Shown here piece by piece: positions 18,756-45,521 of a DNA stretch of 64,000 bases. The notes below the pieces were generated by a model. It had not been told where the DNA came from. It was given only the letters and a program-made list of their open reading frames with translations, and made no database searches. The DNA is from Actinomycetota bacterium (GTDB taxonomy: Bacteria; Actinomycetota; Thermoleophilia; Solirubrobacterales; 70-9), in contig JAFDWF010000073.1 of assembly GCA_018268575.1 (NCBI GenBank), positions 62,001-126,000 of the forward strand. Direction: 5' to 3'. The stretch's first letter is position 1, and each line of letters opens with the position of its first letter. A program made the position numbers and the translations under genes.

Positions 18756-19052
18756 TCACCTGGGCGCCAACGGATGGGTCTCGAGGTAGTCCCCGAGGAC
18801 GTCGTCGACGCGCTCCAGGCCTTCTTTGAACGTCGCGTTGATCGCGAGGAACCCGCTCAGCTCCTCGGGCACCTCCTCGTCGACGTAGATCGCATCCACG
18901 GGGCACTCGGGCAGGCAGGCGCCACAGTCGATGCACTCCTCCGGGTCGATCACGTGCATGCGGCCGGCGATGTGGATGCAGTCGACCGGACAGACGGCCC
19001 GGCACGAGTCGTCGTTCACGTCGATGCAGGCCTCGGTGATGACGTAGGTCAT
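18756..19052 (-). CDS. fdxA: 7Fe ferredoxin (FdxA-like)
   Basis: 98 residues. The [3Fe-4S] motif C9-x7-C17-x3-C21-P (ACIDVNDDSCRAVCP) with C25 nearby and the [4Fe-4S] motif C40-x2-C43-x2-C46-x3-C50-P (CIDCGACLPECP) give the classic actinobacterial seven-iron ferredoxin, with its usual C-terminal tail. It is the last gene of the long run; its ATG overlaps the dehydrogenase stop by four bases. It may feed electrons to the Rieske oxygenase encoded upstream. That pairing is inferred from position, and no reductase gene is seen in the window. Confidence 0.92.
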   Translation of the reverse strand: MTYVITEACIDVNDDSCRAVCPVDCIHIAGRMHVIDPEECIDCGACLPECPVDAIYVDEEVPEELSGFLAINATFKEGLERVDDVLGDYLETHPLAPR

Positions 19053-20146
19053 GCGAACACCAGCACCGGCTTGATCGCCGTTCCGTCGAGGGACGCCGCC
19101 GCGGCTTCGTCGATCTGCTCGAACGGGTACGTCGTCACCAGTCGGTCGATCGGGAGGCGGCCCGACTCCACCAAGGCGACGAGGGTCGGCACGAAGACGT
19201 CGGCGATGCTGTCGCCCATGATCGTGCCGCGGACGCCACGGCCGCGCAGCACGGTCGTCATGTCGAGGGTGAACTCGGCGCCATAGGCAGCGGCGCCGAC
19301 GAGCACGCACTCGCCGGTCTCGCGCAGGCAGTCGACCGCCTGGCGCAGCACCTCAGGCCGACCCGCGACCTCCAGCGAGTACTGGGCGCCACCCCCCGTG
19401 GCCGCCTGGATCGCGACCACCGGGTCCTCCGCGGACGCATCGACGACGTCGGTGGCGCCGAGGGACCGGGCCAGCTCGAGGCGGGAGGGGACGACGTCGA
19501 CGACGACGATCGGCGAGCAGCCGGCGACCACGGCCATCGCCAAGGCGCTCAACCCCACCGCCCCGGCGCCGAAGATCGCCAGCGCGGCCCCGACCCGCGG
19601 CCGCAGCGCGTTGGCAACCGCTCCCGCCCCCGTCTGCACGCCGCAGGCAAGCGGCGCCAGCAGCTCCGGCGGCAGCGCGGACGTGAGCTTGACCACCGTG
19701 CGCTCGTCGGCGACCGCGTGGCGGGCGAACGACGACTGGCCCATGAAGTTGCCGTGCACCGGCCGACCGTCCTGCGAGATCGGGCTGGTGCCGTCCTCGC
19801 GCGCGCCGCCGAAGTTGACCTGGAACATCTGGTCGCAGTAGGGCTCGGCGGCGCTGCGACAGTTCTGGCAGTGGCCACAGGACCAGTAGGAGAGCAGCAC
19901 GCGATCGCCGGGCGCGACCTTGCGCACCGCCGCGCCGACCTCCTCGACGATCCCGACGCCCTCGTGCCCGCAGACCAACGGCAGCGGGCAGGGGTAATCG
20001 CCGTCCCGCGCGATCAGGTCGGTGTGGCAGATCCCGACCGCCTCCATCCGCACCAGCACCTCGGAGGCGCGCGGCGCCTCGAGCTCGATCGGCTCGATCG
20101 AGAACGGCGCGCCCGCCTCGTGCACGATCGCCGCTTCGCTCCTCAT
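19049..20146 (-). CDS. Zinc-dependent NAD(P) alcohol dehydrogenase (aryl-alcohol type)
   Basis: 365 residues, medium-chain dehydrogenase. The catalytic zinc site is C40 (VGICHTD) and H61-E62 (CGHEGVG). The structural zinc cysteines are C90, C93, C96 and C104 (CGHCQNCRSAAEPYC). The Rossmann motif is AIFGAGAVGLSAL. The NFGG...GRPVHGNFMGQSSFA stretch is typical of aryl/benzyl-alcohol and related class III-like dehydrogenases. It presumably oxidises an alcohol released by earlier steps of the operon. Both ends overlap the neighbours by four bases. Confidence 0.88.
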   Translation of the reverse strand: MRSEAAIVHEAGAPFSIEPIELEAPRASEVLVRMEAVGICHTDLIARDGDYPCPLPLVCGHEGVGIVEEVGAAVRKVAPGDRVLLSYWSCGHCQNCRSAAEPYCDQMFQVNFGGAREDGTSPISQDGRPVHGNFMGQSSFARHAVADERTVVKLTSALPPELLAPLACGVQTGAGAVANALRPRVGAALAIFGAGAVGLSALAMAVVAGCSPIVVVDVVPSRLELARSLGATDVVDASAEDPVVAIQAATGGGAQYSLEVAGRPEVLRQAVDCLRETGECVLVGAAAYGAEFTLDMTTVLRGRGVRGTIMGDSIADVFVPTLVALVESGRLPIDRLVTTYPFEQIDEAAAASLDGTAIKPVLVFA

Positions 20147-21429
20147 CCCAGCGCCTCCGGCACGATCGCGATCACGTCGCACATCACCTGGGCGCCCGCG
20201 ATCAGCGGCCGCGCGTCCATCCCGACCACGTTCCAGGCCGGCGGGCTCTGCGGGAACTCCCGCTTCAGGACCTCGTTGAACGCGTCGAGCTGCGCCATGT
20301 CGCGCAGGTGGGTCTGGATCTTCGCCACGTGGGCGAGCGAGCTCCCGGCCGCCGCGCAGACGCGACCGACGCGCTCGAGGATCAGCTCGGTCTCGAGCCG
20401 CCCCGGGGCGCCGAGCCAGGGGAACCCCGGCCGGGGCCGGGCCGCCGGTGCGAGCCCCTGGTCGTCGTGGGCCAGGCAGGTCGAGAGGAAGAGCAGCGGC
20501 CCGGCCTGCACCGCGTGCGGCTCGTGGAACAGCGGCTCCGGCACCCCGTCGGCGCTGATCGTCCGACGGGCGAGGCCCGCGGTCGGGTCGAGCGCGATCA
20601 CGTTGATCTCGATCCGGGCCGCCGGGATCGCGAAATCGTCGACCGTGAACAGCGACCGCGCCGGCGGGTTCTCCGGGAACCACTCGGCCCAGGCCTCGTC
20701 GAGCTGGGTGACGTCGATCGGGTCGCGCAGGAACACCTCGGCCTTGACCACGTCCTGCAGGGAGAGGCCGTCGGAGGCGAGGATCTCCTTGTACATGCCG
20801 AGGATGTAGTCGGTCTCCGAGCGGATCGGCGAACCCATCCACATCCACTCGGCGCTCGTCAGCGCCTCCGGCGCGAGCCCGGCGCGGTAGTCGGACGCCA
20901 TCCGGCCCGAGAGGAACGCGAAGGGCCCGCATCGCACGCCCATCGGCAGCCGGGCCGGCGAGGTCGGGACCGCGTCGCTGAAGATCCCGTGCCGGGCGCC
21001 GCGCACGCCGATCGCGTCGATCGCGTAGGTGGCCCCCTCGGCCGGATAGGCGGCGGTGCCGACCGCGGTGCTGGCGGGCTTGCTCTCCGGGGTCCCCGGA
21101 TAGAACTCGTCGCGGGCGGCGAAGTGGCCGTTGGCGACCGCGCGGTGGCCGTAGTAGTTGTCGACCCGGGCGAGCTCGTCGAGCGACATCCCGGCGGCCG
21201 CGACGACCGCGTCGAGGTTGGCGAAGACGCGCCGGACCTCGGCGCGGGTCGAGTCCCCCGCGTGCGGCAGCAGGGTCTCGGCCGGGCGCGCATCGATCCA
21301 GTCCGTCGCCAGCTGCCCGGAGACGAACAGGTAGTCGCCGTAGCGGATCGCGGGCGAGGCGTGCAGGGGCGAGCGCGGGCCGTCGGGCGTGACCGCGACG
21401 CGCTCCACCTTCGCTCCCTCAGGCGCCAT
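20143..21429 (-). CDS. Protein with three tandem RidA/YjgF domains
   Basis: 428 residues, about three times the length of a RidA monomer. Domain 1 (about 10-145) has GDYLFVSGQLATDW and FANLDAVVAAAGMSLDELAR. Domain 2 (about 160-290) has CGPFAFLSGRMASDY, ILASDGLSLQDVVKAEVFLR and RIEINVIAL. Domain 3 (about 305-428) has AGPLLFLSTCLAHD, VCAAAGSSLAHVAKIQTHLR and MCDVIAIVPEAL. RidA proteins form trimers and hydrolyse reactive enamines and imines such as 2-aminoacrylate. A covalent triple would make one pseudo-trimer. It overlaps the hydrolase gene by 11 bases. Confidence 0.85.
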   Translation of the reverse strand: MAPEGAKVERVAVTPDGPRSPLHASPAIRYGDYLFVSGQLATDWIDARPAETLLPHAGDSTRAEVRRVFANLDAVVAAAGMSLDELARVDNYYGHRAVANGHFAARDEFYPGTPESKPASTAVGTAAYPAEGATYAIDAIGVRGARHGIFSDAVPTSPARLPMGVRCGPFAFLSGRMASDYRAGLAPEALTSAEWMWMGSPIRSETDYILGMYKEILASDGLSLQDVVKAEVFLRDPIDVTQLDEAWAEWFPENPPARSLFTVDDFAIPAARIEINVIALDPTAGLARRTISADGVPEPLFHEPHAVQAGPLLFLSTCLAHDDQGLAPAARPRPGFPWLGAPGRLETELILERVGRVCAAAGSSLAHVAKIQTHLRDMAQLDAFNEVLKREFPQSPPAWNVVGMDARPLIAGAQVMCDVIAIVPEALG

Positions 21430-22552
21430 CGGGAGCGCTCCAGTCGAGCCGATCGAGGACCCAGTCGAAGATCAACTCGTTGGCCATGCTGAGGTCGTCC
21501 TGCTGACAGTGGGCAGAGCCCGGCGTGCCCGACGGGATCAGCATCAGCTCCTTCTCGCAGGTCAGCTCGTCGTAGGTGCGCTGGGCGTGGGAGACCGGCA
21601 CGCTGCGGTCGTCCTCGCCGTGGATCACGAGCGTCGGGCAACGCACCTGGTCGAGGATCCCGCGCAGGCTGAACGTCTTCATCACCTCACGCGCCTCGCC
21701 GATCGTCTCGGTGCCGAACAGCGAGGTCATGTGGTCGGCGAGCGGATGGTCGTCGGGGCGCTTCTCCCAGACCTCGGAGTAGTCGTAACAGGCGCCCCAG
21801 ATCACGGTGGCGGCGAAGCGGTGCTCGAAGGCGGCGGCGCGACCGGCGTAGTAGCCGCCGAGGCTCATCGAGCAGAGGACGAGCGCCTCCGTGTCGACGT
21901 CGGGCCGGGTGAGCGCGTAGTCGACCGCCGCGGTGACCGGGACCTCGTAGTCGTAGCGGCTCGGGATGCCGCCGATCCGCAGCGCCCCGCCCTGGCCGGG
22001 GCCGTCGACGATCAGGCAGCCGAGCCCGCGGTCGGTGATCCCGGGGGCGGTGAAGTAGAGCTCCTCGGCGGTGGAGTCGGCGCCGCCGAAGAAGACGACC
22101 GTGGGACGCTTCTCGCCGGGCTTCTGGCCGCGTCCGGGGACCCACCAGGCGGGCAGCGCCGTGCCTTCGAAGGGCACCTCGACCCGTTCGACGCCGTTGC
22201 CGGCCGCGCCCATCGCGGCGGTGAAGCAGTGGACGCTGCGGTCGTAGGAGGCGCGCCGGCGGGGATCGTCCGGCGCCAGCAGGAAGTCCGCCATCCGCCA
22301 GTACTCGCAGGCCCGCGAATACCGGGTCACGGCGCTGACCGTATGGCCGGCGGCGAGCGCCTCCCCCGCCTCGGCCTCGGTCGCGCCCGCGGTCGCCTTC
22401 CACTGCTCGTGCCAGCTCTCGCGGTCGCCCGCCTCGATCCGGCTGCAGACGTCGTAGATCTCGGAGAACTGGCCGCCGCCGAAGTGCGCCTGCGAGACCA
22501 CGCGGATGACGTTGAAGGACCAGATGTACTCGTCGAACAACTGCATGAACAT
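21419..22552 (-). CDS. Alpha/beta hydrolase (2,6-dihydroxypseudooxynicotine hydrolase-like)
   Basis: 377 residues. A long helical N-terminal lid domain (about 1-120, FDEYIWSFNVIRVVSQAHFG) precedes the alpha/beta core, an organisation seen in 2,6-dihydroxypseudooxynicotine hydrolase and FrsA-type enzymes. The nucleophile elbow is S-M-S230-L-G-G, with Ser replacing the first Gly of GxSxG. The acid is probably in HGEDDRSVPVSHA and the histidine in GSAHCQQDD. The oxyanion region is VVFFGGADSTAEE. Such enzymes cleave C-C bonds next to a ketone after ring hydroxylation. Confidence 0.78.
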   Translation of the reverse strand: MFMQLFDEYIWSFNVIRVVSQAHFGGGQFSEIYDVCSRIEAGDRESWHEQWKATAGATEAEAGEALAAGHTVSAVTRYSRACEYWRMADFLLAPDDPRRRASYDRSVHCFTAAMGAAGNGVERVEVPFEGTALPAWWVPGRGQKPGEKRPTVVFFGGADSTAEELYFTAPGITDRGLGCLIVDGPGQGGALRIGGIPSRYDYEVPVTAAVDYALTRPDVDTEALVLCSMSLGGYYAGRAAAFEHRFAATVIWGACYDYSEVWEKRPDDHPLADHMTSLFGTETIGEAREVMKTFSLRGILDQVRCPTLVIHGEDDRSVPVSHAQRTYDELTCEKELMLIPSGTPGSAHCQQDDLSMANELIFDWVLDRLDWSAPDGA

Positions 22553-22556
22553 AAGG

Positions 22557-23522
22557 TCAGCCTCCGATCGGGATCGCCACGGGGCGCATCGGTGAGCCGG
22601 TCGAGCCGCGCAGCCGCAGCGGCATGCCGAGGAAGGCGAACTCCCAGCATTCCTGGGCGGCGAGCTCCTCCAGCCAGAGCACCTCGATGATCTGCGCGCC
22701 CGCCGTGGCGAACATGTAGCCGTGCACCGGCAGGAACGTCTCCGGCTCCTCGTGGGGGATCACCTCGAAGGCGATCGTGTCGGTCCCGAGGACCATCGCC
22801 CCGTGCTCCTCGCAGAGGAGGCGGGCGGCCTCGAGGCCGACCCCGGCGCCGCTTTCGAGGTAGCTCTGCTGTGGCCAGCGCTCCATCACGCCCGTGCGCA
22901 GCAGCACCACGTCGGCGCGCTGCAGCCGGACGCCCTGGCGCTCGGCCGCGCCGCGGACGTCGGCGGCGGTGATCGCGTAGCCGTCGGGCAGACAGGCGAC
23001 GTCGTGGAGCGCCGCGACGTCGAGGAGGACGCCGCGAGCGATCACAGGCGGGTAGGCACTCGCGCCGCCGACCATCCAGCCGCGACCGCCCAGCTGCTCC
23101 TCGGCTGTCCAGCCGTTCCAGTACGTACCGCAGTGACCCATGTGGGTGAGCGTGTCGATGTGCGTACCGCAGTGGGTGTTCATCAGGATCGCGTCGGCCG
23201 AGAGGCTGTAGCGCTCGTGCACCGGTCCCGGCGTGCCGGTCATCCCGTCGAGCACCGACGCCTGCGGGGTGTGGGTGACGAAGCTCTGGTACGGCGGGTC
23301 GCCGGAGACGGTGAACGCCGGCATCCCGACGAAGTAGTCGACCGAGAGGTCGTAGACGCGCTCGCCGCGGAGCTGGGAGAGGACCGCCCCGGTCGACTCC
23401 GGGGTGATCCAGTTGAGTCGGCCGATCTCGTCGCCGGGCCCCCAGGGGCTGGCCGAGACGACGAGCCCGTCGCGCTCGAGCAGCGGCTCGAACGCGGTCC
23501 GCCCTCCCTCTGCCGGGGTCAC
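22557..23522 (-). CDS. Cyclase-family metallohydrolase (kynurenine formamidase/isatin hydrolase-like), copy 1
   Basis: 321 residues. The metal motif reads H117-C-G-T-H121-I-D123-T-L-T-H127, the HxGTHxDxPxH signature with Leu-Thr replacing Pro-x. Other family landmarks are WGPGDEIGRLNWITPES, YDLSVDYFVGMPAFT, ADVVLLRTGVMERW and GTDTIAFEVIPHEE. Members use Mn or Zn to hydrolyse cyclic or formyl amides (isatin, N-formylkynurenine). It is closely related to the gene at 47179. Its start overlaps the Rieske oxygenase stop by four bases. Confidence 0.85.
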   Translation of the reverse strand: MTPAEGGRTAFEPLLERDGLVVSASPWGPGDEIGRLNWITPESTGAVLSQLRGERVYDLSVDYFVGMPAFTVSGDPPYQSFVTHTPQASVLDGMTGTPGPVHERYSLSADAILMNTHCGTHIDTLTHMGHCGTYWNGWTAEEQLGGRGWMVGGASAYPPVIARGVLLDVAALHDVACLPDGYAITAADVRGAAERQGVRLQRADVVLLRTGVMERWPQQSYLESGAGVGLEAARLLCEEHGAMVLGTDTIAFEVIPHEEPETFLPVHGYMFATAGAQIIEVLWLEELAAQECWEFAFLGMPLRLRGSTGSPMRPVAIPIGG

Positions 23523-24532
23523 GGCTTGTACTCTCCGACGCTGCCGATCGTCGCCAATTCGCGGCGGAAGGCGATCCCCGACGCGTCCGGCACCTTCAGG
23601 TGCAGCTCCTCCCGCAGGCTGACCGGGATTTCCTCGGGCCGCTGGCTCTCGACGATCCGGCGGTCCTGCTCGAGCACGCGGTTGGAGAAGTGATCGAAGA
23701 GCGCGTCCGGCTCCTCGAGCGCGTAGTTGCGCACGAAGGTGAGGTAGAGCTCGGTTTCCTTCTCCGCGCGGGGGCTGGCCATCAGGGTGACGAAGGTGAC
23801 CCCACCATCCGGGGTGACCTTCTTCACGTGCACGGTGAACGGCTTCACGTAGCGGTACTCGAAGCGCACCACGTCGCCCTCGGCACTGCTCGGCGACTCC
23901 GGCTCGACGGTGTCGTATGCGTACATCAATCCGTAGTCGGTCTTCTCCATCTCCACCGCCGGCACTTCCGTCTGGTCCGGCGGCGCGAGCAGGTTCGGGT
24001 GGACGAAGGGGAAGTGCGAGAAGTCCATGAAGTTCTCGACCGCGCGCCCGGCCGAGCAGCGCCAGATGTTCCGCGAGGAGAGGTGATGGTGGTAAGCGGG
24101 GTCGTCGTACTCGTTCTCGGGCCAGGTCGGGACCGCCGCGGCCGGATCCTCGAGGGCGACCCAGACAAGCCCGTAGCGCTCCTGCGCCTGGTAGGCGATC
24201 GCCCGTGCTTTGCGGGGGACGTTCGAGCCCTCGGGCAGCGACGGGATCTTCACGCAGTTGCCCTCGGAGTCGTACTGCCAGCCGTGGTAGGGGCAGGTGA
24301 TGCAGCCGTCGGTCACCCAGCCGAGCGACAGCGCCGCGCCGCGGTGGATGCAGAGGTCGCGGAAGACCGACACTCCCTGCGGTCCGCGAAAGCCGACGAG
24401 CTCGGTCCCGAGAAGCTGGAAGCGCTTCGGCTGTTCGGTCAGGTCGCTCGACTCCGCGATCGGATGCCAGTAGTTGGCAAGCGTGGGCGCCGCGACGTCG
24501 GTGCTCTCGGAGACGACGGTGCTCTCAGACAT
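23519..24532 (-). CDS. Rieske non-heme iron oxygenase, alpha subunit
   Basis: 337 residues from ATG 24532. The Rieske [2Fe-2S] ligands are C61-x-H63 (DLCIHRGAALSLG) and C80-x2-H83 (CPYHGWQYD). The catalytic iron motif is D170-x2-H173-x4-H178 (NFMDFSHFPFVHPN). Size and layout fit the vanillate O-demethylase/phenoxybenzoate type, which acts as a homotrimer without a beta subunit. These enzymes demethylate or hydroxylate ring compounds with electrons from a ferredoxin and reductase. No reductase is encoded in the window; fdxA at the operon end is a candidate donor. Confidence 0.92.
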   Translation of the reverse strand: MSESTVVSESTDVAAPTLANYWHPIAESSDLTEQPKRFQLLGTELVGFRGPQGVSVFRDLCIHRGAALSLGWVTDGCITCPYHGWQYDSEGNCVKIPSLPEGSNVPRKARAIAYQAQERYGLVWVALEDPAAAVPTWPENEYDDPAYHHHLSSRNIWRCSAGRAVENFMDFSHFPFVHPNLLAPPDQTEVPAVEMEKTDYGLMYAYDTVEPESPSSAEGDVVRFEYRYVKPFTVHVKKVTPDGGVTFVTLMASPRAEKETELYLTFVRNYALEEPDALFDHFSNRVLEQDRRIVESQRPEEIPVSLREELHLKVPDASGIAFRRELATIGSVGEYKP

Positions 24533-25349
24533 GTTCTGCTCCTTGCGGGATCTCGATTCGTTGCGCTTCCTCGTGAAGGGCGGCCAGGCGGACCACGGCG
24601 TCGGCGAGCTCCGCGGCGGCGGGCGGCGCCTCCTCGGCACCGGGAGTCAGCTCGTACCAGCCCCGGTAGCCGCTTGCGGTCAAGCCGGAGATCAAGGCGC
24701 CGATGCTCCCGTCGGGTCCCGGCTCCGCGTCCAGGAGCGAGAGCGAGACGCGGACGCAACCGATCCGCGGGGCCGACGCGATCGCCTCCGCGAGGCTGGC
24801 CTCGCCACCCGCTCCGGCGGCCACCACGATTCGCACGGCCGGCTCGCCCGCGGCGTCGATCAGGCGAGCGGCGTCGGCGGGGGTGCGCACCAGGGAATCG
24901 CCGTCGCCCGGCGCGATCCCGAGCGGGACGCCGCGCGGGTGCAGGCCGCGCGCCGTGCGGGCCAGCTGACGCACGCCGTCGGCGAGCAGCTCCCAGGCCT
25001 CCGCGACGGACGCGCCGGCGGGCAGCGCGCCGCTGCCGATCACGACCGCGTGGGGATCGAAGACGGCAAAGCGACGCAGGCTGTGGGCGATCGCGGCGAT
25101 CCGCTCGGCCGGGTCGACCGGGTCCTCGCCAGGGCTCGCCGGCAAGATCGTGGCGATCGCCGGCTCCACCGTCGTCGCCTTCAGGCCGCTCTCGATGAAG
25201 TGGAACAGCGCCTCCGGATCGCGCCCGGCGGCGAAGCTGCGCTCGCTCAGCCCGATGCCGCCCGCGCCCGCCTCGACCAACGCGAGGTAGTCCTCGTTGA
25301 CGTTCGCGCCCGGCCGACAGCGCTCCGAGATCGCGATCCGCGGGATCAC
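24525..25349 (-). CDS. TIM-barrel sugar phosphate isomerase/epimerase-like protein
   Basis: 274 residues from GTG 25349, which overlaps the amidase stop by four bases. The sequence IAISERCRPGANVNEDYLAL, then GAGGIGLSERSF and later GDGDSLVRTPADAARLIDAA and SGYRGWYELTP, follows the xylose-isomerase-like TIM barrel family (AP endonuclease 2 fold). Metal-ligand Glu and His residues are fewer than usual, so activity is uncertain. Its end overlaps the Rieske gene by eight bases, indicating coupled translation. Confidence 0.65.
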   Translation of the reverse strand: MIPRIAISERCRPGANVNEDYLALVEAGAGGIGLSERSFAAGRDPEALFHFIESGLKATTVEPAIATILPASPGEDPVDPAERIAAIAHSLRRFAVFDPHAVVIGSGALPAGASVAEAWELLADGVRQLARTARGLHPRGVPLGIAPGDGDSLVRTPADAARLIDAAGEPAVRIVVAAGAGGEASLAEAIASAPRIGCVRVSLSLLDAEPGPDGSIGALISGLTASGYRGWYELTPGAEEAPPAAAELADAVVRLAALHEEAQRIEIPQGAEHV

Positions 25350-26830: not shown

Positions 26831-28341
26831 CGCACGATCCTCAGCGACTGGCCCGGCTTCGACGGCGCGCCGGAGCGATCGGCGCAGCCGCCTTCGCGTG
26901 CTTCCAGCAACCGCTTGGCCTTGAGCGCAAACCAGAAGGCCATGCGGTGATCCGGATCTTCGGGGTCGCGACCGGTGCGCTCCTTCAGCCGCGCCATCCG
27001 GTAGCGCAGGGTGTGCCGGTGGACGCCCAGCTCCTGGGCCGCGACGTTCCAACGCCAGCTCGAGCGGGTCAGGGCATCCAACGCTTCGATCACCGCCTCG
27101 TCCTCGACCGCGCCCTCGAGCACCTGGTCGACGAACGCGCGCAGGGTCTCCTCCGGCAGCGACAGCAGCAGCTCGACCGAACCGAGGTCGCGGTAGGAGG
27201 CGATCGGCCGGTCGGTCGCCGTCAGCGAGGCGCGGGCCTCGGCGATCGAGTGCGGAAGATCGGCCGTGTCGGCCGCCCGCCCGAGCCCGACGCGGACGCC
27301 CGGGCGCGAGGCCACCAGCGCCTCGGCCAGCTCGATCAGTTTGCTTTCGCCACGCGCTTCGACGATGAACTCGGCGCGATCGGTCCGCGCGGTCGAGAGG
27401 TAGCGGGCGGGCCGGCGGTCGAGCGCGCTGGCGATCGAAAGGCGGAGCTTCTCGCCGGAGAGGCTGTCCGAGGGCAAGGCGAGGAACGGCACGTGGCGCT
27501 GCTCGGGACGCAGGCCGAAGGCCGTCATCTTGCGCGCGAGCTCGCGCTCGCTCAGGCGTCCCTCCTCGATGTCGGTGAGCAGGTCGCCGGCCAGGCGCAG
27601 CTCGGCGGCGCTGACCGCGCGCCGCAACGAGAGGTGCAGGGCGATCGCGTTCTGGGCCTGCTGCAGGATCAGGCGCTCGGAGTCGCTCATTTCCTCCGCC
27701 GGCAGCGAGATCCGCAGCGTCGCCGCGCGGTCGCCGGCCAGCACCGGCAGCTCGGCACCCCCTTCGAACGAGGTGCGTTGGCCGACGTGGTTTTCGGCGA
27801 TCGCCCGATGGCTCTCGTCGAGCAACACGACCGAGCAGCCCAACGAGCGCGAGATGACCAAGAGCAGCTGGGGCAGGTCGGCTCCCGAGACGACGGCCTG
27901 TGTGAGCTCCTCGTTGACGGCCAGCGCCCGCGAGACCGCTTCCAGCCGCTCGCTCGCGAGCCGACCGAAGACGAAGGTCGAGAGCGCGATCGTCGGCACG
28001 TGGCGGGGGACCGAGAAGACCGGGAAGTCGACGGCGTTGGCGGCCGCGACCAGCGCCGACGGGACCGAGGCGAGGCCGTAGCCGAGGCAGACGCCGAGCC
28101 CGGCGACGTCTTTCTCCGCCAGCCGCCGCAGGTAGGCCCGCTGGCGCGTGGCGATGTCGCCGAGCGCGCTGCCGAGGGTGAGCAGGAGCTCGCCTCCCTC
28201 CAGGTATCCGGTCGGCTCCTCGAGCTCGGAGACGTGGAGGCCGGTGACCTCGTGCCCGAGTCCTCGCTCCCCCGCAACGAGCGTCAACTCGAGGTCGTCG
28301 GCGCCAACGATCTCGCCCACGGTGATCACCTCGGCGATCAT
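26827..28341 (-). CDS. PucR-family transcriptional regulator
   Basis: 504 residues. The N-terminal PucR domain (about 8-130, LTLVAGERGLGHEVTGLHVS, GGELLLTLGSAL) is a ligand-sensing region in purine-catabolism regulators. A central GGDEF-like/CdaR region follows, and the C-terminal HTH_30 reads NVAAQELGVHRHTLRYRMAR LKERTG. PucR in Bacillus controls purine breakdown; relatives control other nitrogen-compound pathways. It is encoded inside the long run, 21 bases after the amidohydrolase gene and overlapping the amidase, so it probably controls its own operon. Confidence 0.9.
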   Translation of the reverse strand: MIAEVITVGEIVGADDLELTLVAGERGLGHEVTGLHVSELEEPTGYLEGGELLLTLGSALGDIATRQRAYLRRLAEKDVAGLGVCLGYGLASVPSALVAAANAVDFPVFSVPRHVPTIALSTFVFGRLASERLEAVSRALAVNEELTQAVVSGADLPQLLLVISRSLGCSVVLLDESHRAIAENHVGQRTSFEGGAELPVLAGDRAATLRISLPAEEMSDSERLILQQAQNAIALHLSLRRAVSAAELRLAGDLLTDIEEGRLSERELARKMTAFGLRPEQRHVPFLALPSDSLSGEKLRLSIASALDRRPARYLSTARTDRAEFIVEARGESKLIELAEALVASRPGVRVGLGRAADTADLPHSIAEARASLTATDRPIASYRDLGSVELLLSLPEETLRAFVDQVLEGAVEDEAVIEALDALTRSSWRWNVAAQELGVHRHTLRYRMARLKERTGRDPEDPDHRMAFWFALKAKRLLEAREGGCADRSGAPSKPGQSLRIVR

Positions 28342-28362
28342 AGGTACGCTCTGGAGAAAGGG

Positions 28363-29796
28363 TCAATCGACATTTCCATCCGATCCTCGGATGCTTTTGG
28401 CCAATCGGGCAGGACGGCCATCCGACACCTCGGCAGCTCGCTCTCGCGAGCCCGCGCCGGGCAGCCATTCGCCGCGGCGATCGCCGCGGACGATCCGGTC
28501 GCGGGCGATCTCCTCGCCGCGCAGATAGGTGGCGACGACGCGGCCCCGCAGGGTCCGCCCGGAGTAGGGCGACCAGCGGGCCAGCGAGTGGATGTCCTCG
28601 TCGCGCACCTCCCAGCCGCCATCCGGATCGATCAGCACCAGGTCGGCATCGTCACCGGGATTCAGCGAGCCCTTGCCGGCGAGCCCGTAGACCTGGGCGG
28701 GGCGCAGCGCGTAGGCCTCGGCGACGCGCTCGAGCGTGGTGCGGCCACGCAGCGCCGCGTCGAGCATCAACGGCATCGTCGTGTCGATCCCCGGCAGGCC
28801 GAAATGCACGTCCCAGATGTCGCCGTCGCGCTTCTGCGCCGCGGTCGAGGGAGCGTGATCGCTCGAGAGGTGATGGACCAGGCCCTCGTTGAACGCGTCC
28901 CACATCCGCTGCTCGTCAGCGGCGGAGCGGATCCGCGCGGGCGGGGTGAACTTGCGGAAGGCGCCGAGCTCGACAACCTCGCGCTCCCACAGGTTCAGGT
29001 ACTGCGGGCAGCACTCGGCGAGGATCCTCGATCCCGCCCCCCGCTCCCGGGCCAGCAGCTCGAGCAGGGCGGCGTTGCTGACGTGCGCGACGATCAGGGG
29101 TGCGCCGGTCTCGCGGGCGACGCCGGCGACCTCGCTGGTCGAAACGCGCTCCGCCTCGACGCTGCGCCAGACCGGGACGATCCCGCCGTCGTGGCGCCCG
29201 GCGGCGCGCAGCGCCCGCTCGTTCGCCGCGGTGATCGCATCGTCCTCGCTGTGCACCAGGCAAGGCGCCTCCAGCTCGGCGACGGTCCGCGCCAGCTCGG
29301 CGAGCTTCTCGCCCTTGATCGCGGGCACGCCGTGCGTCGCGCAGGTGAACGCCTTGAAGTAGACGACGCCCTCGCCCCACAGGGCCGGCAGATCGCCCAG
29401 CCGGTCGGGCCAGACGTGCGCGACGAGCCCGTAGTCGACGTGCGATCGGCCCGCCAGCGCGGCTCGCTTCTCGACCAGCGATTCGACATCGGTGACCGGC
29501 CTGCCGTGCGTGTGCTCGACGACCGTGGTGACGCCGGCGCATGCCGCCGCGGCCGAGCCGCTGGGAAAGTCCTCGCGGGTCGGATCGCCCGGCTCCATGA
29601 AGTGGACGTGCGTGTCGACCATCCCCGGCATCAACAGGTGGCCCCGCACGTCGACCTCGCGGGCGCCGGTCGGTGCCGGCGCGGTCCGCGGATGCCGCGC
29701 GACCACCTTGCCGTCGCGCACCTCGAGGTCCAGATCGGCTCGCCCGTCGGCAGCGACGATCGTCGCGCCGCGGAAGATGTGGTGGCCGTCGCTCAT
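28363..29796 (-). CDS. Dihydropyrimidinase/allantoinase-like cyclic amidohydrolase
   Basis: 477 residues of the amidohydrolase superfamily. The metal motifs are H63-x-H65 (VDTHVHFMEPG), the carbamylated lysine K148 (VVYFKAFTC), H182 (CLVHSED), a histidine in IVAHVSN and the final aspartate in HHLSSDHAPST. These enzymes open cyclic imide, hydantoin, allantoin or dihydropyrimidine rings. The sequence lies nearer allantoinase/dihydroorotase than true D-hydantoinase, by my reading. It overlaps the asparaginase gene by four bases. It is the probable ring-opening enzyme of the operon. Confidence 0.88.
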   Translation of the reverse strand: MSDGHHIFRGATIVAADGRADLDLEVRDGKVVARHPRTAPAPTGAREVDVRGHLLMPGMVDTHVHFMEPGDPTREDFPSGSAAAACAGVTTVVEHTHGRPVTDVESLVEKRAALAGRSHVDYGLVAHVWPDRLGDLPALWGEGVVYFKAFTCATHGVPAIKGEKLAELARTVAELEAPCLVHSEDDAITAANERALRAAGRHDGGIVPVWRSVEAERVSTSEVAGVARETGAPLIVAHVSNAALLELLARERGAGSRILAECCPQYLNLWEREVVELGAFRKFTPPARIRSAADEQRMWDAFNEGLVHHLSSDHAPSTAAQKRDGDIWDVHFGLPGIDTTMPLMLDAALRGRTTLERVAEAYALRPAQVYGLAGKGSLNPGDDADLVLIDPDGGWEVRDEDIHSLARWSPYSGRTLRGRVVATYLRGEEIARDRIVRGDRRGEWLPGAGSRERAAEVSDGRPARLAKSIRGSDGNVD

Positions 29797-30785
29797 CGGT
29801 CGAAGGACGCGAAGAGGGCGGCGAGCCCTTGCGGATCGAGTTGTGCGCCCAGGCCGACCAGCAGCAGGACCCGCGCGGCGACGGGGGAGAGCATCCCGGC
29901 CGGCAGCGCGCCGGTCGCCCGCATGCTGCGCTCCGAGCCGTGGAAGCCGTAGGTCCCGCGCAGCAGCCGGCCGACCCGGGGGCGGCAGGTCAGGGCGACC
30001 GGGATCCCGGCCTCGACCGACTCCTGGATCGCCGCGAGGACCTGCGGCGAGCCGTGGCCGGCACCGAGCAGGGCGACGACGATCGCGTCCGCGCCGTGCT
30101 CGCGGGAGAGGGTGATCTGGCGCGCTTCGTCGCCGAGCGCGACGAGGACGATGTCGACGCGCGCGTCGAGGGTCGCGGGCGCGACGCAGGGAAGCCGCTC
30201 GAGGCGACCGTTGAGGGCGACCTCGTTCTCGACCACGCGGCCGAGCGGACCGGTCTGCGGGGAGGCGAAGGCGAGCGGGCTGACCGAGTTCTCCTTGCGC
30301 GCGTAGCGGGCGGCGTGGACCTCGCCACCGAGGGTGACCAGGACGCCGAGCCCGCGCGCCGGCTGCGAGCGCGCCACGGCGAGCGCGTCGAGCATGTTCT
30401 GGGCGCCGTCGGCACTCGGCGCCGAGGCGGCCCGCATCGCGCCGGTGAAGACGATCGGGTGCTCGCCGTCGTAGAGCAGGTCGGTGAGGAAGGCGACCTC
30501 CTCGAGCGTGTCGGTCCCGTGCGTGACGACGACCGGGCCGGCGAGCGCCGCGGCGATGATCTCGCGGGCTGCCGCGAGCGCGCCGCTGAGGTCGAGGTGG
30601 GCGCTGGGAAGGTTGCCGAGCGCCCGCACCTCGAGGTCGGTGTGGTCGAGGCCGTCGATCGCCCGCGCCAGCTCGTCGCCGTCAAGTGCCGGGCGCGCCG
30701 GGTCGCCGACCATCGCGATCGTCCCGCCGAGGCTCAACAGCTGCACGGCAACGGTCCCCGTCGCGTCGTCCGCCGCCTGCGTCAT
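29793..30785 (-). CDS. L-asparaginase-family amidohydrolase
   Basis: 330 residues from ATG 30785. The first catalytic threonine lies in LSLGGTIAMV (T22), the second in VVVTHGTDTLEEVAF (T91, D92). A lysine in ARKENSVSPLAF completes the site. Length and absence of a signal peptide fit the cytoplasmic type. Although the family is named for asparagine, members also deaminate other amides. Its place between an importer ATPase and a cyclic amidohydrolase, with four-base overlaps on both sides, suggests a role in releasing ammonia from a pathway intermediate. Confidence 0.88.
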   Translation of the reverse strand: MTQAADDATGTVAVQLLSLGGTIAMVGDPARPALDGDELARAIDGLDHTDLEVRALGNLPSAHLDLSGALAAAREIIAAALAGPVVVTHGTDTLEEVAFLTDLLYDGEHPIVFTGAMRAASAPSADGAQNMLDALAVARSQPARGLGVLVTLGGEVHAARYARKENSVSPLAFASPQTGPLGRVVENEVALNGRLERLPCVAPATLDARVDIVLVALGDEARQITLSREHGADAIVVALLGAGHGSPQVLAAIQESVEAGIPVALTCRPRVGRLLRGTYGFHGSERSMRATGALPAGMLSPVAARVLLLVGLGAQLDPQGLAALFASFDR

Positions 30786-32329
30786 GCGGCGGCGCTCCCG
30801 CGGTCGAGGAGGCACTGCTGGACGATCCGATCCTCGGTCAGGTCGTTGCCGCTGAGCACGCTGACGACCCGGCCGTCGCGGAAGACGAACACGCGGTCGC
30901 ACATCTGCGCGAGCTCGCCGTACTCGGCGCTGGCCATCACCACGGGGGTGCCCTCCTCTGCGAGATCGCGGATGCGGCGGAACAGCTGCCGGCGGGCACC
31001 GACGTCGACGCCCTGGGTCGGCTCGTGCATCAGCAGCGCCTGCGGCCCGGTCGAGAACCACTTCGCCATCAGCGCCTTCTGCTGGTTGCCGCCCGACAGG
31101 CTCGCCAGCGGCAGATCTGGATTGGGCGGCTCGACGCTGAAGTCGCGCAACAGCGCGTGGGTGGCGCGACGCTCCTTCGCCTTCTGCAGGCGGGTCTTGG
31201 AGACGAAGCTCGGCAGCGTCGGCAGCGTCACGTTCTCGGTCAGCGTCGCCTCGCCGGCGCCACCGTTGACGAGGCGGTTCGCCGGCAGCAGCGCCAGCCC
31301 GGCGGCAAGCGCGCGGCGCGGGTCGAGCCGCGCCGCGTCGTGGGTCGCGCCGCCGAGCCGCAGCTTGCCGGCGCTCGCCCGCTCGGCTCCCGCCATCATG
31401 TACAGGGCGCGCTCGTACCCGGTGCCGACGAGGCCGGTCAGCCCGACGATCTCAGAGCGCCGGACCTGCAGCGAGAAGGGCGCCGTCAGGTCGCTCCCCT
31501 GGAGGTCCTCGACCTCCAGCACGACCTCGCTCTCGGGGTGGTGGGCAGGCGGGAAGAGCTCCTCCAGCGCGCGGCCGACGATCAACTCGACCAGGCCGTC
31601 CTCGTCCAGGCCGCTCACCTCCGCGGTCGCGACGCGGGCGCCGTTGCGCAGGACGGTGACCCGGTCCGCCAACGCGGTCACCTCCTCCAGGCGGTGGGTG
31701 ACGAGCAACACGCCGAACCCGCGGCCGGTCACCTCGTGGATTGCGGCGAAGAGGTGCTCGACCCCGTCGCGCGGCAGGTAGGCGGTCGGCTCGTCGAGGA
31801 TCAACGCGCCTTCGTCGACGCCCTCGAGCTGCTCGAGCGCGCGCACGATGGCGACGATCGCGCGCTCCACCTCGCGCAGGTCTTCGACCGACTTGTAAGG
31901 CGAGACGTCGAGGCCGAACGAGCTCAAGGCGGCGCGGGCGCGGCGTGCCTCGTCGCGCCACGGGATCCGCCAACCGGCCTTCGTCTGGTAGCGGCCGATG
32001 CGGAGGTTCTCGAGGATGCTGAGGCTCGGCGCCAGCGCCAGGTCCTGGTGCACCACGGCCAGCCCGTGCTCGACCGCGTCACCGGCGCTCAGCGGCAGGT
32101 CCACGGCCTGCCCACCGATCTCCAGCTCTGCGCCCGGCTCCGGCGCGTGGTATCCGGCGAGGATCTTCACCAGCGTCGACTTCCCCGAGCCGTTCTGCCC
32201 GAGCAGGCCGTGCACCTCCCCGCCGCGCAGGTCGAGGTCGACGTCGCGGAGCACCTTGCGCGGACCGAACTGCTTCGACATCTTGCGCGCGGAGAGGACC
32301 ATGCGCGGCTCTGGCTGATTCGATGTCAT
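30782..32329 (-). CDS. CUT2 (ribose-type) ABC importer ATPase, copy 1
   Basis: 515 residues with two fused nucleotide-binding domains as in RbsA. NBD1 has Walker A GQNGSGKST and Walker B LILDEPTAYL, but the signature is degenerate (DLREVERAIVAIVRAL instead of LSGGQ). NBD2 has the atypical Walker A GLVGTGYER, an intact LSGGNQQK signature, and HEPTQGVD where DEP is usual. The same peculiarities occur in the ATPase at 57834, so the two importers are paralogous. It powers uptake with the permease (33671) and lipoprotein (32392). Confidence 0.9.
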   Translation of the reverse strand: MTSNQPEPRMVLSARKMSKQFGPRKVLRDVDLDLRGGEVHGLLGQNGSGKSTLVKILAGYHAPEPGAELEIGGQAVDLPLSAGDAVEHGLAVVHQDLALAPSLSILENLRIGRYQTKAGWRIPWRDEARRARAALSSFGLDVSPYKSVEDLREVERAIVAIVRALEQLEGVDEGALILDEPTAYLPRDGVEHLFAAIHEVTGRGFGVLLVTHRLEEVTALADRVTVLRNGARVATAEVSGLDEDGLVELIVGRALEELFPPAHHPESEVVLEVEDLQGSDLTAPFSLQVRRSEIVGLTGLVGTGYERALYMMAGAERASAGKLRLGGATHDAARLDPRRALAAGLALLPANRLVNGGAGEATLTENVTLPTLPSFVSKTRLQKAKERRATHALLRDFSVEPPNPDLPLASLSGGNQQKALMAKWFSTGPQALLMHEPTQGVDVGARRQLFRRIRDLAEEGTPVVMASAEYGELAQMCDRVFVFRDGRVVSVLSGNDLTEDRIVQQCLLDRGSAAA

Positions 32330-32343
32330 CGTCGAAAGCCGGT

Positions 32344-32376
32344 GGCTCGCGGGCGGGCGATGCCCGCCCGCGAGCC
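32344..32376. repeat. Hairpin between binding-protein and ATPase genes
   Basis: Perfect 15-bp arms GGCTCGCGGGCGGGC and complement enclose the loop GAT. It begins 15 bases after the binding-protein stop codon on the minus strand. Such hairpins commonly protect the binding-protein message or reduce read-through so that the binding protein is made in excess over the ATPase. Confidence 0.75.
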
Positions 32377-32391
32377 GGTCCGGTACTTCCC

Positions 32392-33630
32392 CTATTCGAG
32401 GCCCCAGAGCTTTTTATAGGCTTCCTGGTAGTTCGTCTTCGTGTACCAGGTGGACTCCGGCGCTTCCAGGTCGATGCTTTCGATGTTTTCTTCGGTGAAC
32501 AGTCGCTCGGGCACGCCGATGTTGTCCAGGGGAGGCTTGTTGAGCAGCACGCGGAACGTCTGGTCGGCGTATCCCCAGCCCTGCAGTACGGTCGCGTCAC
32601 CGACCTCGGCGGCGACGATGTCACCCTTTGCGAGATATTCCATTACTCCCGGGCTCGCGTTGAAGGTGACCATCTTGACCGAGCTCGACTTCCCGGCAGT
32701 GGTGATCCCCGGGATCATGAAGAGGGCCATCCCGTCGAATACCGGCACCACGTAGTTCACTTCCGGATTCGACCGGAGGATCGACTGGATCTGGCTCTGT
32801 AGTCCGTTCCACTGTGCGACCGGAACGTTGAACTGCTTCACCGAGCATTCCGGGCAGACTTTCCCGAGCTCCTTCAGGAAGGCGGCCGAGACCAGGTTCG
32901 AAGTGTCGAGTTCCTTCGATTCGATCAATGCGACGTTGGCCGAGCCTTCCGAGTCAGATGCGGTGAAGTCGGCCATGATTTCACCGGGGAAGCTGTAGGA
33001 GTGGGTCGCGTAAGCCGCGATCGTGCCCTTGTCTTCACCAGTGACCGGGCCCGGATCGGTGGTGTGGGTGGCGATCACCGGGATACCGGCGGCCTTCGCC
33101 TTCGCTAGCGCCGGCTTCACCAGGACGGTGGGGAAGCCGCCGAGAAGAATCGCATCAGCGTTCTGTGCGATCGCTTTTTCGATCCCGCTGCTGAAGTTCG
33201 AGACCATCGATTTGCCGTCGACGACCGTCAGGTTCACTCCGGCGGCTTCCATGCCTTCGGTGAGGCCTTCGGTGAGCTCCTGCTCGAATGGGATCGAGAG
33301 GTCGTAGTCGACGTACCAGACGTTCTTGCCCTTCAGGGAGGAGACGTCGATCGGTTCTCCGGGTGGTTTCCACTTGACCGGTTCGAGAGCTTTGGTCACC
33401 GCGGCTTCGGCTTCGGCGATGGCACCGGAGCTCGATTCAGATTCCGTTTCCGCCGCCGGTTCGGTTTCCGCTTCCGACGAGCCGCCCGATTCCGCTTCCG
33501 TCGATTCGCTCGTGCTCGAGCTGCTGCTGGAGCCGCTGCTCCCACAGCCCGCCGCGATGAGACCGAGGGCCGCCAGCAAGGCAAGCAGCGCAAGGGCTCG
33601 AGCGACGACGGATTTCCCACTTCGTTGCAT
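32392..33630 (-). CDS. CUT2-type ABC importer substrate-binding lipoprotein, copy 1
   Basis: 412 residues. The signal peptide with lipobox LALLAALGLIAAGCGS gives a membrane-anchored lipoprotein, followed by a long Ser/Glu linker (30-75). The periplasmic-binding-protein type 1 fold follows: GKNVWYVDYDLSIPFEQE, DAILLGGFPTVLVKPALAKA, AGIPVIATHTTDPGPV. The protein ends YKKLWGLE, nearly identical to the end of the binding protein at 55590. The ribosome site GGAGGAG is strong. The ligand is unknown; despite sugar-type homology, the operon suggests a nitrogenous ring compound. Confidence 0.9.
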   Translation of the reverse strand: MQRSGKSVVARALALLALLAALGLIAAGCGSSGSSSSSSTSESTEAESGGSSEAETEPAAETESESSSGAIAEAEAAVTKALEPVKWKPPGEPIDVSSLKGKNVWYVDYDLSIPFEQELTEGLTEGMEAAGVNLTVVDGKSMVSNFSSGIEKAIAQNADAILLGGFPTVLVKPALAKAKAAGIPVIATHTTDPGPVTGEDKGTIAAYATHSYSFPGEIMADFTASDSEGSANVALIESKELDTSNLVSAAFLKELGKVCPECSVKQFNVPVAQWNGLQSQIQSILRSNPEVNYVVPVFDGMALFMIPGITTAGKSSSVKMVTFNASPGVMEYLAKGDIVAAEVGDATVLQGWGYADQTFRVLLNKPPLDNIGVPERLFTEENIESIDLEAPESTWYTKTNYQEAYKKLWGLE

Positions 33631-33670
33631 CTCTCCTCCATCCAGTCCGTTTAGACCGTTGACGTTTCCC

Positions 33671-34681
33671 TCAACTGGCCCGTCGCCGGGACGCCAGCCG
33701 CGAGATCGCGACCGCCAGGACGAGCGACGTGCCGTAGAAGATCTGCTCTATCCATCCCGAGAGGCCGAGCAACTCGAGACCGGTGATGCCGGTGACCAGG
33801 AAGTACACGGCGATCAGCGAGCCGATCGGATTGAAGCGGCCGGGCACGATCACGCTCGAGCCGAGGAACGCCGCGGCGAAGGCCGGCAACAGGTAGCTGT
33901 TGCTGATCGTCGGGTCGGCGGCGCCGAGCGAGCCCGCCAGGACCACGCCTGCCAACGCGCTCAGGAACCCGCTCAGCAAGAACACGAGTATGCGCATGCG
34001 CGCGACGCGCACTCCGGCAAGCCGAGCCACATTGCGGTTCGCGCCGACGAAGTACAGATAGCGGCCGAACGGCGTGCACGAAAAGACGTACCAGCAGATC
34101 AGCGTCAGGGCCAATCCGTAATAGAACAGCGCCGGGATCCCGAGCAGAGGGTGCTGTACGGCGTTGACGAGGTCTTCGGAGACACCGCCGATGCTCGTCT
34201 GGTTGATCGCCAGCGCCAGCCCGCCGAGGAAGGTTCCGGTCCCCAGCGTGACGACGATAGATTCCACGTCGATCACGACGACGAAGAACGCGTTCACCGC
34301 CCCCACGATCAGGCCCGCGGCGAGGGCGACGGCGATCGTCGGCAGGATCGCCCATTCGTGGACCACGTTCAGCCAACCGACGAGCACGAGCGCCAGCCCG
34401 AGGGTGCCGGAGATCGAGAGATCGAACTCACTGGCGGCAAGCGGGAACAGGAGCGCAAGCGTGACGATCACCAGGACGGCCTGCGAGCTGGCGATCGTGG
34501 TGACGTTCCCCCAGGTCGCAAAAGTGTCGGGCCGGGCGATCGAAAACCCTATGATCATCACGATCCAGACGCCGATCACACCATAACGACGGCCTAGCTC
34601 GGCACGATCGAGTGGCGGACGACGCGGTTCGGAAGGCGGAGCTTTCTCGGGCGCTGACGGTGAAGAACCGGCGATCTCCAT
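33671..34681 (-). CDS. CUT2-type ABC importer permease, copy 1
   Basis: 336 residues with about nine hydrophobic segments (VIGVWIVMIIGFSIARP, LVIVTLALLFPLAASEFDLS, and others). The BPD_transp_2 landmarks are FDLSISGTLGLA, GAVNAFFVVVIDVESIVVTL, TPFGRYLYFVGANRNVARLA and LPAFAAAFLG. It is the first gene of the fourteen-gene minus-strand run. The 282 bases upstream (34682-34963) contain no credible gene and should hold the operon promoter; I see no clear operator there. The MocR-type gene lies further upstream on the same strand. Confidence 0.9.
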   Translation of the reverse strand: MEIAGSSPSAPEKAPPSEPRRPPLDRAELGRRYGVIGVWIVMIIGFSIARPDTFATWGNVTTIASSQAVLVIVTLALLFPLAASEFDLSISGTLGLALVLVGWLNVVHEWAILPTIAVALAAGLIVGAVNAFFVVVIDVESIVVTLGTGTFLGGLALAINQTSIGGVSEDLVNAVQHPLLGIPALFYYGLALTLICWYVFSCTPFGRYLYFVGANRNVARLAGVRVARMRILVFLLSGFLSALAGVVLAGSLGAADPTISNSYLLPAFAAAFLGSSVIVPGRFNPIGSLIAVYFLVTGITGLELLGLSGWIEQIFYGTSLVLAVAISRLASRRRAS

Positions 34682-42298: not shown

Positions 42299-42331
42299 GC
42301 CTGCCGCCGCCCCCGCGGCGCCTCAGCTGGG
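42290..42331. terminator. Bidirectional terminator whose arms include both stop codons
   Basis: CCCAGCTGAG (42290-42299) and CTCAGCTGGG (42322-42331) are perfect 10-bp arms. Each arm carries the last two coding triplets and the TGA of the gene that ends there (CCC AGC TGA, Pro-Ser-stop), so the two convergent genes have identical ends facing one another. Confidence 0.65.
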
Positions 42332-43854: not shown

Positions 43855-43939
43855 CAGCATCCTCCTTCGATGTGTCCACGTGGATTCGAACGACCGAGGT
43901 AGATCGCGCGCAGCCCCCCCACTTCCACCAAGGGGATCG

Positions 43940-45403: not shown

Positions 45404-45521
45404 ATTCTCTCCTCGCTCGGAGGCGCCGAAGAGGCGCGCCTCGACCGCAACAAGCTAGGCCCGGGACCAGACGACCGCCGGCGCTCGAAGAGGTACTCGC
45501 GCTCTCGCCGTCGGAGAACCC

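Follow-up and report, generated by a model that had tools for sequence, protein, structure and literature searches.

A candidate operon with Rieske oxygenase and triple RidA genes, probably for importing and degrading a nitrogen-containing ring compound, in an actinobacterial contig

Layout and content of the gene run

The 64,000-nucleotide stretch of DNA analysed here (the window) raises the question whether a long run of genes on its minus strand encodes a single pathway and, if so, for what kind of compound. A first-pass annotation had described fourteen genes on one strand, running from 34681 to 18756, and this layout was confirmed by translation and Pfam searches, which found all fourteen intact (Table 1). 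Its statement that most junctions are four-base overlaps holds by a slim majority: 7 of the 13 junctions (54%) overlap by exactly four bases. Two larger overlaps, of 8 and 11 bases, bring overlaps of any size to 9 of 13 (69%), and the remaining junctions are gaps of 40, 62, 21 and 4 bases. The minus strand carries on past both ends, after a gap of 369 bases (down to 18387) and one of 282 bases (up to 34964), and the upstream genes include a MocR-type regulator and an ABC operon of polyamine type. A consensus scan of the region gave a single promoter-like match (28366-28337, directly before the PucR gene; 0.5 expected by chance) and nothing resembling a terminator on the minus strand; being uninformative, it was set aside as evidence on operon structure. 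Judged from the sequence, the view that the fourteen genes form one operon-like run is supported. Some of the earlier gene names call for correction: the "allantoinase-like" enzyme is nearest to L-hydantoinase 1gkr, the "aryl-alcohol dehydrogenase" is a zinc enzyme resembling class III/NDMA-dependent dehydrogenases, and the TIM barrel is a weak match.

Table 1. Features of the window
Feature	Position	Strand	Basis
CUT2-type importer permease	33671..34681	-	PF02653, 2.2e-29
Importer substrate-binding protein	32392..33630	-	PF13407
CUT2-type ATPase, two ABC domains	30782..32329	-	Pfam domains
Asparaginase-family amidohydrolase	29793..30785	-	PF00710 + PF17763; GGTI and HGTDT motifs
Hydantoinase/allantoinase-like cyclic amidohydrolase	28363..29796	-	nearest solved structure L-hydantoinase 1gkr, 1.2e-61
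PucR-type regulator	26827..28341	-	Pfam
Amidase-signature amidase	25346..26830	-	7.1e-112; GGSSGGS motif
Xylose-isomerase-like TIM barrel	24525..25349	-	weak PF01261 match, 1.3e-8
Rieske non-heme-iron oxygenase, NdmA/SxtT-like	23519..24532	-	NdmA 9.3e-46; SxtT 3.8e-44
Cyclase-family hydrolase	22557..23522	-	PF04199; HxGTHxDxxxH motif
Alpha/beta hydrolase, DHPON-hydrolase-like	21419..22552	-	nearest solved 2jbw, 4.4e-31
Triple RidA (3x-RidA) fusion	20143..21429	-	three PF01042 domains; catalytic Arg in domain 2 only (R258)
Zn-dependent alcohol dehydrogenase, class III/NDMA-dependent-like	19049..20146	-	catalytic + structural zinc motifs
7Fe (3Fe-4S/4Fe-4S) FdxA-like ferredoxin	18756..19052	-	FdxA_Actino 100.5 bits, cut-off 125; cysteine motifs
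Second catabolic module	42323..61495	-	gene content listed in the text

The importer is of the CUT2 ABC type by all three of its components, the two-domain ATPase, the permease and the binding protein. Sugars are the usual cargo of CUT2 importers. The binding protein resembles sugar-binding proteins of known structure weakly (best match 4.7e-9), too weakly to name a ligand, and this comparison was dropped. The cyclic amidohydrolase contains the metal-site motifs HxH, a lysine and SSDHAP, and its nearest solved relatives are L-hydantoinase and allantoinase. The alpha/beta hydrolase is nearest to 2,6-dihydroxypseudooxynicotine (DHPON) hydrolase, 2jbw. Their alignment runs from residue 44 to 367 and takes in the regions of the nucleophile, the acid and the histidine; by this sequence similarity the window enzyme may catalyse a DHPON-like C-C hydrolysis, the reaction known for an acyl-dihydroxypyridine. 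Relatives of this hydrolase (40-44%) on Hymenobacter and Emticicia plasmids have carbohydrate and aromatic (protocatechuate-type) genes as neighbours; such contexts name no substrate, and these relatives were not used as a guide to one. The N-terminal part of the PucR-type regulator matches the PmfR model with a score of 95.9 against a cut-off of 800. The models nearest to the zinc alcohol dehydrogenase are the NDMA-dependent, class III and S-(hydroxymethyl)glutathione/mycothiol dehydrogenases, all far below cut-off.

Active sites of the triple RidA protein

The window protein matches PF01042 at three stretches of one chain, the arrangement called 3x-RidA. The statements on 3x-RidA in Niehaus et al. 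2015 (PMC4433059; example EF_0115) describe three RidA domains per chain, presumed to form a covalently linked trimer, assign no function and do not mention loss of sites. The predicted structure of the window protein contains three alpha/beta units (pLDDT 90.9), the second of which matches RidA structures with a Z of about 19. The catalytic arginine (Arg105 of TdcF) is present in domain 2 in 64 of 64 aligned homologues; at the same position domain 1 has S, T, H, A or D and domain 3 has S (W in the window protein), never arginine. As a control, the protein encoded at L161:5536-6834 has arginine in all three domains. The window protein thus does not have a full active site in each of its three units, as a RidA trimer would, and because arginine is found in the middle domain alone in the aligned homologues, it is, on these alignments, a one-site pseudo-trimer. 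In this respect, and in the position of its gene among genes for catabolism of nitrogen compounds, it differs from the 3x-RidA proteins as previously described.

Three concatenated YjgF-type units are also present in cyanuric acid hydrolase (AtzD) and barbiturase, which likewise act in degradation of nitrogen rings; AtzD has a Ser-Lys site in the central barrel (PMC3758960). The window protein, in contrast, keeps the RidA-type arginine and gave no sequence match to the AtzD/TrzD family, PF01042 being the only model matched at E<=0.001. AtzD, which has the toblerone fold, was also absent among the structural matches listed for the model, although absence from that list is no proof. The best whole-chain structural matches were the chorismatases 4bps and 5ag3 (Z 26.7, rmsd 2.9 over 285 residues), which are alike in structure but share 13% identity and have a different gene context.

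The Rieske oxygenase and its pairing with triple RidA in other genomes

The Rieske oxygenase carries a VanA_C domain and its motifs are intact: the Rieske CxH...CxxH, the iron site N-x2-D-x2-H-x4-H and a C-terminal Asp. Its nearest solved relative is the methylxanthine N-demethylase NdmA, with SxtT almost as close, and motifs and best match together place it in the NdmA/SxtT type. The reaction of SxtT is a hydroxylation, not a demethylation. No reductase for the oxygenase is encoded among the fourteen genes, and the description of the route as complete was therefore not upheld.

No other genome searched contained the complete fourteen-gene set. No close relative of the window triple RidA was present among 84,980 species genomes, and the plasmid collection gave no match at E<=1e-15. 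The view that all fourteen genes form one conserved unit is therefore not supported; parts of the set do, however, co-occur beyond the source strain. The most prominent case is the pairing of Rieske oxygenase and triple RidA in Acidimicrobiia. Of 14 genomes bearing triple RidA, six, from Acidimicrobiia, contain a single Rieske homologue that reaches E<=1e-100 (48-53% identity), the next best in any of them being 1e-68 or weaker. In the five of these six that could be judged, no more than about 10 kb separates the Rieske gene from the triple RidA gene, a proximity expected by chance in about 0.6% of cases per genome (20-kb target, genome of ~3 Mb). Besides the pair, these loci encode an importer and enzymes that hydrolyse amides or rings. 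At L162, one strand carries genes for the Rieske oxygenase, two permeases, a binding protein, an isochorismatase-family amidohydrolase and triple RidA, with a four-base overlap at the Rieske/permease junction, and in L161-L163 nitrilase and cyclase genes adjoin the Rieske gene. The Acidimicrobiia cyclases, with 281 aa, are shorter than the 321-aa enzyme of the window, to which they show no close similarity. The clusters carry Mo-hydroxylases as well; no MoCoBD_1 protein was detected in the source assembly, which is 87% complete. Elsewhere, neighbours of triple RidA include amidohydrolases, formamidase, hydantoin-racemase family proteins, Mo-hydroxylases and PnrA-like importers. Close Rieske relatives were also found without triple RidA, in 14 of 399 class genomes, none of which is a triple RidA carrier. 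A Rieske tree could not serve as proof of kinship, the window branch not being resolved and falling in no starred group; by path, the Acidimicrobiia rows linked to triple RidA lie nearest to it. That Rieske and triple RidA genes are also neighbours in distantly related bacteria suggests a genuine route, as yet without a name.

Proposed route and alternatives

The reading that we consider probable is that the run is an operon whose products import a polar nitrogen-containing ring compound and break it down step by step. The enzyme families fit the earlier proposal of such a function, and two further findings strengthen the nitrogen-heterocycle theme: the nearest solved relatives (NdmA/SxtT, DHPON hydrolase and L-hydantoinase) and the genes conserved around triple RidA in other genomes; a particular substrate is not favoured by these data. 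The content and order of the genes, the motifs, the nearest families and the recurring pairing of Rieske and triple RidA are observations, from which we infer the substrate class, every reaction and the order of steps, as follows. The CUT2 importer would take up the substrate. The Rieske oxygenase would hydroxylate it, either at a carbon of the ring or at an N-methyl group, with electrons that probably come through the FdxA-like ferredoxin from a reductase whose gene lies outside the run. The resulting imine or enamine would be hydrolysed by the middle domain of triple RidA, where its sole complete arginine site lies. Ring amide bonds would be opened by the cyclase-family and hydantoinase-like enzymes, ammonia would be released by the amidase and the asparaginase-like enzyme, and the DHPON-hydrolase-like enzyme would cut a C-C bond. 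The alcohol dehydrogenase might oxidise an alcohol or a formaldehyde adduct, and PucR may sense the compound. Several findings count against this reading: the full set was absent from the other genomes searched, close Rieske relatives exist without triple RidA, the Acidimicrobiia clusters differ in their cyclases and Mo-hydroxylases, the run has no gene for a Rieske reductase, and CUT2 importers mostly transport sugars.

More tentatively, we propose an undescribed catabolic route, patchy across Actinobacteria (the source lineage and Acidimicrobiia). In it, an NdmA-like Rieske oxygenase would convert a nitrogen heterocycle into an unstable imine or enamine, on which a one-site triple RidA that has given up two of its three sites would act next, as a true pathway enzyme dedicated to this step and not a general damage-control protein. 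If so, 3x-RidA proteins, noted in 2015 without a function, would gain one, and there would be a concrete example of a RidA protein that serves one particular pathway. The route would also indicate an environmental nitrogen compound with an undescribed breakdown route, and define a gene set for substrate screening: Rieske oxygenase, triple RidA and the importer binding protein. Consistent with the earlier claim that no described pathway has this combination, the literature searched (most subscription journals being outside it) held no published match, no work joining RidA, Rieske and PucR or treating the Acidimicrobiia gene set, and no use of the name 3x-RidA other than that of 2015.

A specific form of the operon reading, which we regard as rather unlikely, is that the Rieske oxygenase N-demethylates a methylated purine- or hydantoin-like compound and the alcohol dehydrogenase oxidises the formaldehyde. 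NdmA as best solved relative, the models nearest to the dehydrogenase, and the PucR regulator agree with this, as do hydantoinase A/B in the next module and the adjacent Rieske, HyuA and HyuB genes of L120. Moreover, frmA/frmB flank the caffeine genes ndmABCDE in Pseudomonas putida CBB5 (PMC4408171), likewise a clustering of an NdmA-type Rieske oxygenase with a formaldehyde-dehydrogenase-like zinc enzyme for an N-heterocycle. The fourteen genes lack NdmD-type reductase, NdmC/E, xanthine dehydrogenase and uricase-type genes, however, and add the importer, triple RidA, cyclase, C-C hydrolase and hydantoinase, of which the C-C hydrolase would be superfluous for demethylation alone. The undetected Mo-hydroxylase, the low dehydrogenase scores and the nearly equal closeness of the hydroxylating SxtT also argue against it.

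It is less likely still that the run comprises two or more independent units for different substrates: importer, asparaginase and hydantoinase; PucR, amidase and TIM barrel; and Rieske to ferredoxin. The gaps of 40, 62 and 21 bases and the promoter-like match before PucR, for all its chance expectation, would allow such a division, and relatives hold parts alone: CUT2, amidase and cyclase in L145, triple RidA and alpha/beta hydrolase in L040, and the Acidimicrobiia pairing. Against it, overlaps join PucR, amidase, TIM barrel, Rieske and cyclase as well as ATPase, asparaginase and hydantoinase, the gaps are short, and the strand is free of terminator-like sites.

Quite improbable is a pyridine/nicotine-like pathway, in which the DHPON-hydrolase-like enzyme would cleave a hydroxylated pyridyl ketone under a PmfR-like PucR regulator. 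The run has in common with the nicotine pyridine pathway encoded on pAO1 of Paenarthrobacter (Kdh, DHPON hydrolase, PmfR) a DHPON-hydrolase-like enzyme, with 2jbw as its best solved relative, and a PucR-type regulator, with its partial PmfR match. In strain S33, moreover, a Rid6 protein belongs to the nicotine cluster (PMC7688666). The PmfR score is far from its cut-off, however, the hydrolase family is broad, with its plasmid relatives in other contexts, and the run has a Rieske oxygenase in place of Mo-hydroxylases and nicotine-type oxidases, and no dihydroxypyridine hydroxylase. A purine/ureide or caffeine operon was rejected because the defining genes are absent.

Besides the run, the module at 42-62 kb is related to it. 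It contains cyclase 3, a second CUT2 importer, hydantoinase A and B, an isopropylmalate/tartrate-type dehydrogenase and an ALDH, and further a PF06684 protein, cyclase 2, a nitrilase, an amino-acid permease and two SDRs. CUT2, amidase, cyclase and PF06684 genes are found together in G383, a genome of the same family as the source.

Gene content and organization of the run

The first-pass annotation had described 14 consecutive minus-strand genes for uptake and breakdown of a nitrogen-containing ring compound. Translation and family models bore out the gene run itself: all 14 genes are open and each can be assigned to a family. The junctions include seven four-base overlaps, overlaps of 8 and 11 bases (one each), and gaps of 40, 62, 21 and 4 bases. 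The run is set off by 282 bases upstream and 369 downstream and, as the same strand goes on beyond both edges, it is bounded by spacing and not by a strand switch. The window comes from a contig of 131 kb, one of the 226 contigs in a 4.3 Mb assembly that is 87% complete. The 2OG-Fe(II) oxygenase gene just downstream is probably unrelated.

Location of the features in the window
Feature	Coordinates	Strand	Content
Gene run	34681-18756	minus	14 genes
Rieske oxygenase	23519..24532	minus	NdmA/SxtT-like
Triple RidA	20143..21429	minus	three RidA domains
PF09859 2OG-Fe(II) oxygenase	17662-18387	minus	annotated for damaged DNA
Likely amine-use unit	34964-42298	minus	MocR/PdxR-type regulator, polyamine-type ABC operon
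Opposing gene of this unit	40826-42298	plus	class III aminotransferase-like
Second module	42323-61495	minus	CUT2 importer, second cyclase, hydantoinase A and B, nitrilase, PF06684 protein, ALDH, isopropylmalate/tartrate-type dehydrogenase, amino-acid permease
Third cyclase-family protein	60497-61495		QSSSQWDALSH

Enzymes and proposed route

In the Rieske oxygenase the Rieske motif is complete, and both the N-x2-D-x2-H-x4-H iron site and the C-terminal Asp are present; among solved structures this enzyme is closest to NdmA and SxtT/SxtDIOX. None of the 14 genes encodes a Rieske reductase. The alpha/beta hydrolase is closest to 2,6-dihydroxypseudooxynicotine (DHPON) hydrolase, and the allantoinase-like protein to L-hydantoinase, with allantoinase next. 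The amidase is typical of amidase-signature enzymes, and its best relatives include GatA and biuret hydrolase. The cyclase retains HxGTHxDxxxH; its sole solved relative by sequence, 5ibz, is uncharacterised. The zinc alcohol dehydrogenase (ADH) retains its catalytic and structural zinc motifs, and its best-scoring models, all below cut-off, are NDMA-dependent and S-(hydroxymethyl)glutathione/mycothiol dehydrogenases. The ferredoxin is of the 7Fe, FdxA-like type.

Judged from these families, the most likely route is import of the substrate, hydroxylation or N-demethylation by the Rieske enzyme, imine/enamine hydrolysis by the triple RidA, and ring opening as cyclase and hydantoinase hydrolyse the ring amides. 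The amidase and asparaginase-like enzymes would set ammonia free, the DHPON-like hydrolase would cleave a C-C bond, and the ADH would carry out an oxidation. For the N-demethylation version, the caffeine ndm cluster offers a known parallel, its Rieske genes being flanked by frmA and frmB (PMC4408171). However, the NdmD reductase and xanthine-oxidising genes are absent from the run, and the 87% complete assembly yielded no Mo-hydroxylase. The nicotine hybrid pathway, with a RidA-family protein in its N-heterocycle cluster (PMC7688666), provides a precedent for such a protein among N-heterocycle genes.

A triple RidA with its catalytic arginine in one domain

Such fusions are named 3x-RidA, and supposed to be linked trimers, by Niehaus et al. 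2015 (PMC4433059). A three-sequence profile run against 84,980 genomes picked out 63 loci, almost every one of which has a full-length 3x-RidA. The 60 scan sequences aligned were 27-37% identical to the window protein. The catalytic arginine was present in the middle domain of all 64 aligned proteins, and in domains 1 and 3 of none (0/64 each). This residue lies outside all scan patterns, but one pattern is situated just ahead of it. A 3x-RidA of another type (L161, a region around an Acidimicrobiia Rieske gene, 5536-6834) has the arginine in all three domains, which indicates that the alignment can reveal such a difference. This three-arginine protein shares its contig with a one-arginine 3x-RidA (L047). 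One further divergent three-domain RidA protein is encoded in two Acidimicrobiia-type genomes (L160, 12588-13901; L164, 8261-9574).

Over most of its length, the predicted structure (pLDDT 90.9, pTM 0.92) matched chorismatases (Z 26.7, rmsd 2.9, 285 residues); for the middle domain, RidA structures matched with Z about 19. We read the protein as a pseudo-trimer in which one site is canonical and the other two are presumably inactive.

Recurrence of modules and a second catabolic module

The whole set was not found in the genomes compared, and regions around the best Thermoleophilia relatives of the Rieske and cyclase genes hold fragments only. Among 399 class and 396 phylum genomes the window triple RidA has only distant relatives. 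Of 14 genomes with a 3x-RidA, mostly Acidimicrobiia, 6 contain just one Rieske homologue that reaches E<=1e-100 (48-53% identity); the second-best Rieske in any of these six scores 1e-68 or weaker. In five (L036, L037, L044, L047 and L053) the homologue is no more than about 10 kb away from the 3x-RidA gene, and in the sixth it is on another, short contig. In a ~3-Mb genome, one place falls within 10 kb on either side with a chance probability of about 0.6%. Since L036, L037 and L044 are related, we count at least three separate cases of linkage. That an NdmA-like Rieske oxygenase and a one-site triple RidA repeatedly occur as a pair is the firmer new point.

Nitrilase and PF04199 cyclase genes surround the Rieske gene in L161-L163, and Rieske, HyuA and HyuB genes are adjacent in that order in locus L120. 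A Solirubrobacterales locus (L040) combines 3x-RidA with a DHPON-like hydrolase, a Mo-hydroxylase, DUF1989 and an ABC importer, and a genome of the window's family (G383) groups CUT2 importer, amidase, cyclase and PF06684 genes. Other 3x-RidA neighbours are amidohydrolases, acetamidase/formamidase, hydantoin-racemase family proteins, luciferase-like monooxygenases and creatinase-like M24 proteins. The theme common to these modules and neighbourhoods is C-N bond catabolism. The nitrogen-ring reading of the first-pass annotation is partly supported: the recurrent modules favour it, whereas the lack of the whole set in the other genomes compared counts against it. What is new in the operon is the way in which already known families are combined.

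In Binatia and relatives (L017, L020-L022, L024, L025), amidohydrolase, acetamidase/formamidase, SnoaL-like and creatinase-like genes flank 3x-RidA in conserved order. In marine Rhodospirillaceae and others (L054-L072), 3x-RidA belongs to a conserved cassette that also encodes an S15-family hydrolase, a hydantoin-racemase-family protein and two 3-hydroxyisobutyrate-dehydrogenase-like proteins; this is a separate unnamed pathway. Two 3x-RidA contigs from metagenome bins (L015, L068) bear the doubtful-looking names Klebsiella pneumoniae and Candidatus Uhrbacteria.

The window holds a second, related module, so that the run forms one portion of a catabolic region roughly 45 kb long. The CUT2 ATPases of module and run are 38% identical, and their cyclases 56%. 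The third cyclase-family protein lacks HxGTHxD; the motif in its place resembles QGSTQWDALSH of 5ibz, and by its sequence this protein may have a different chemistry.
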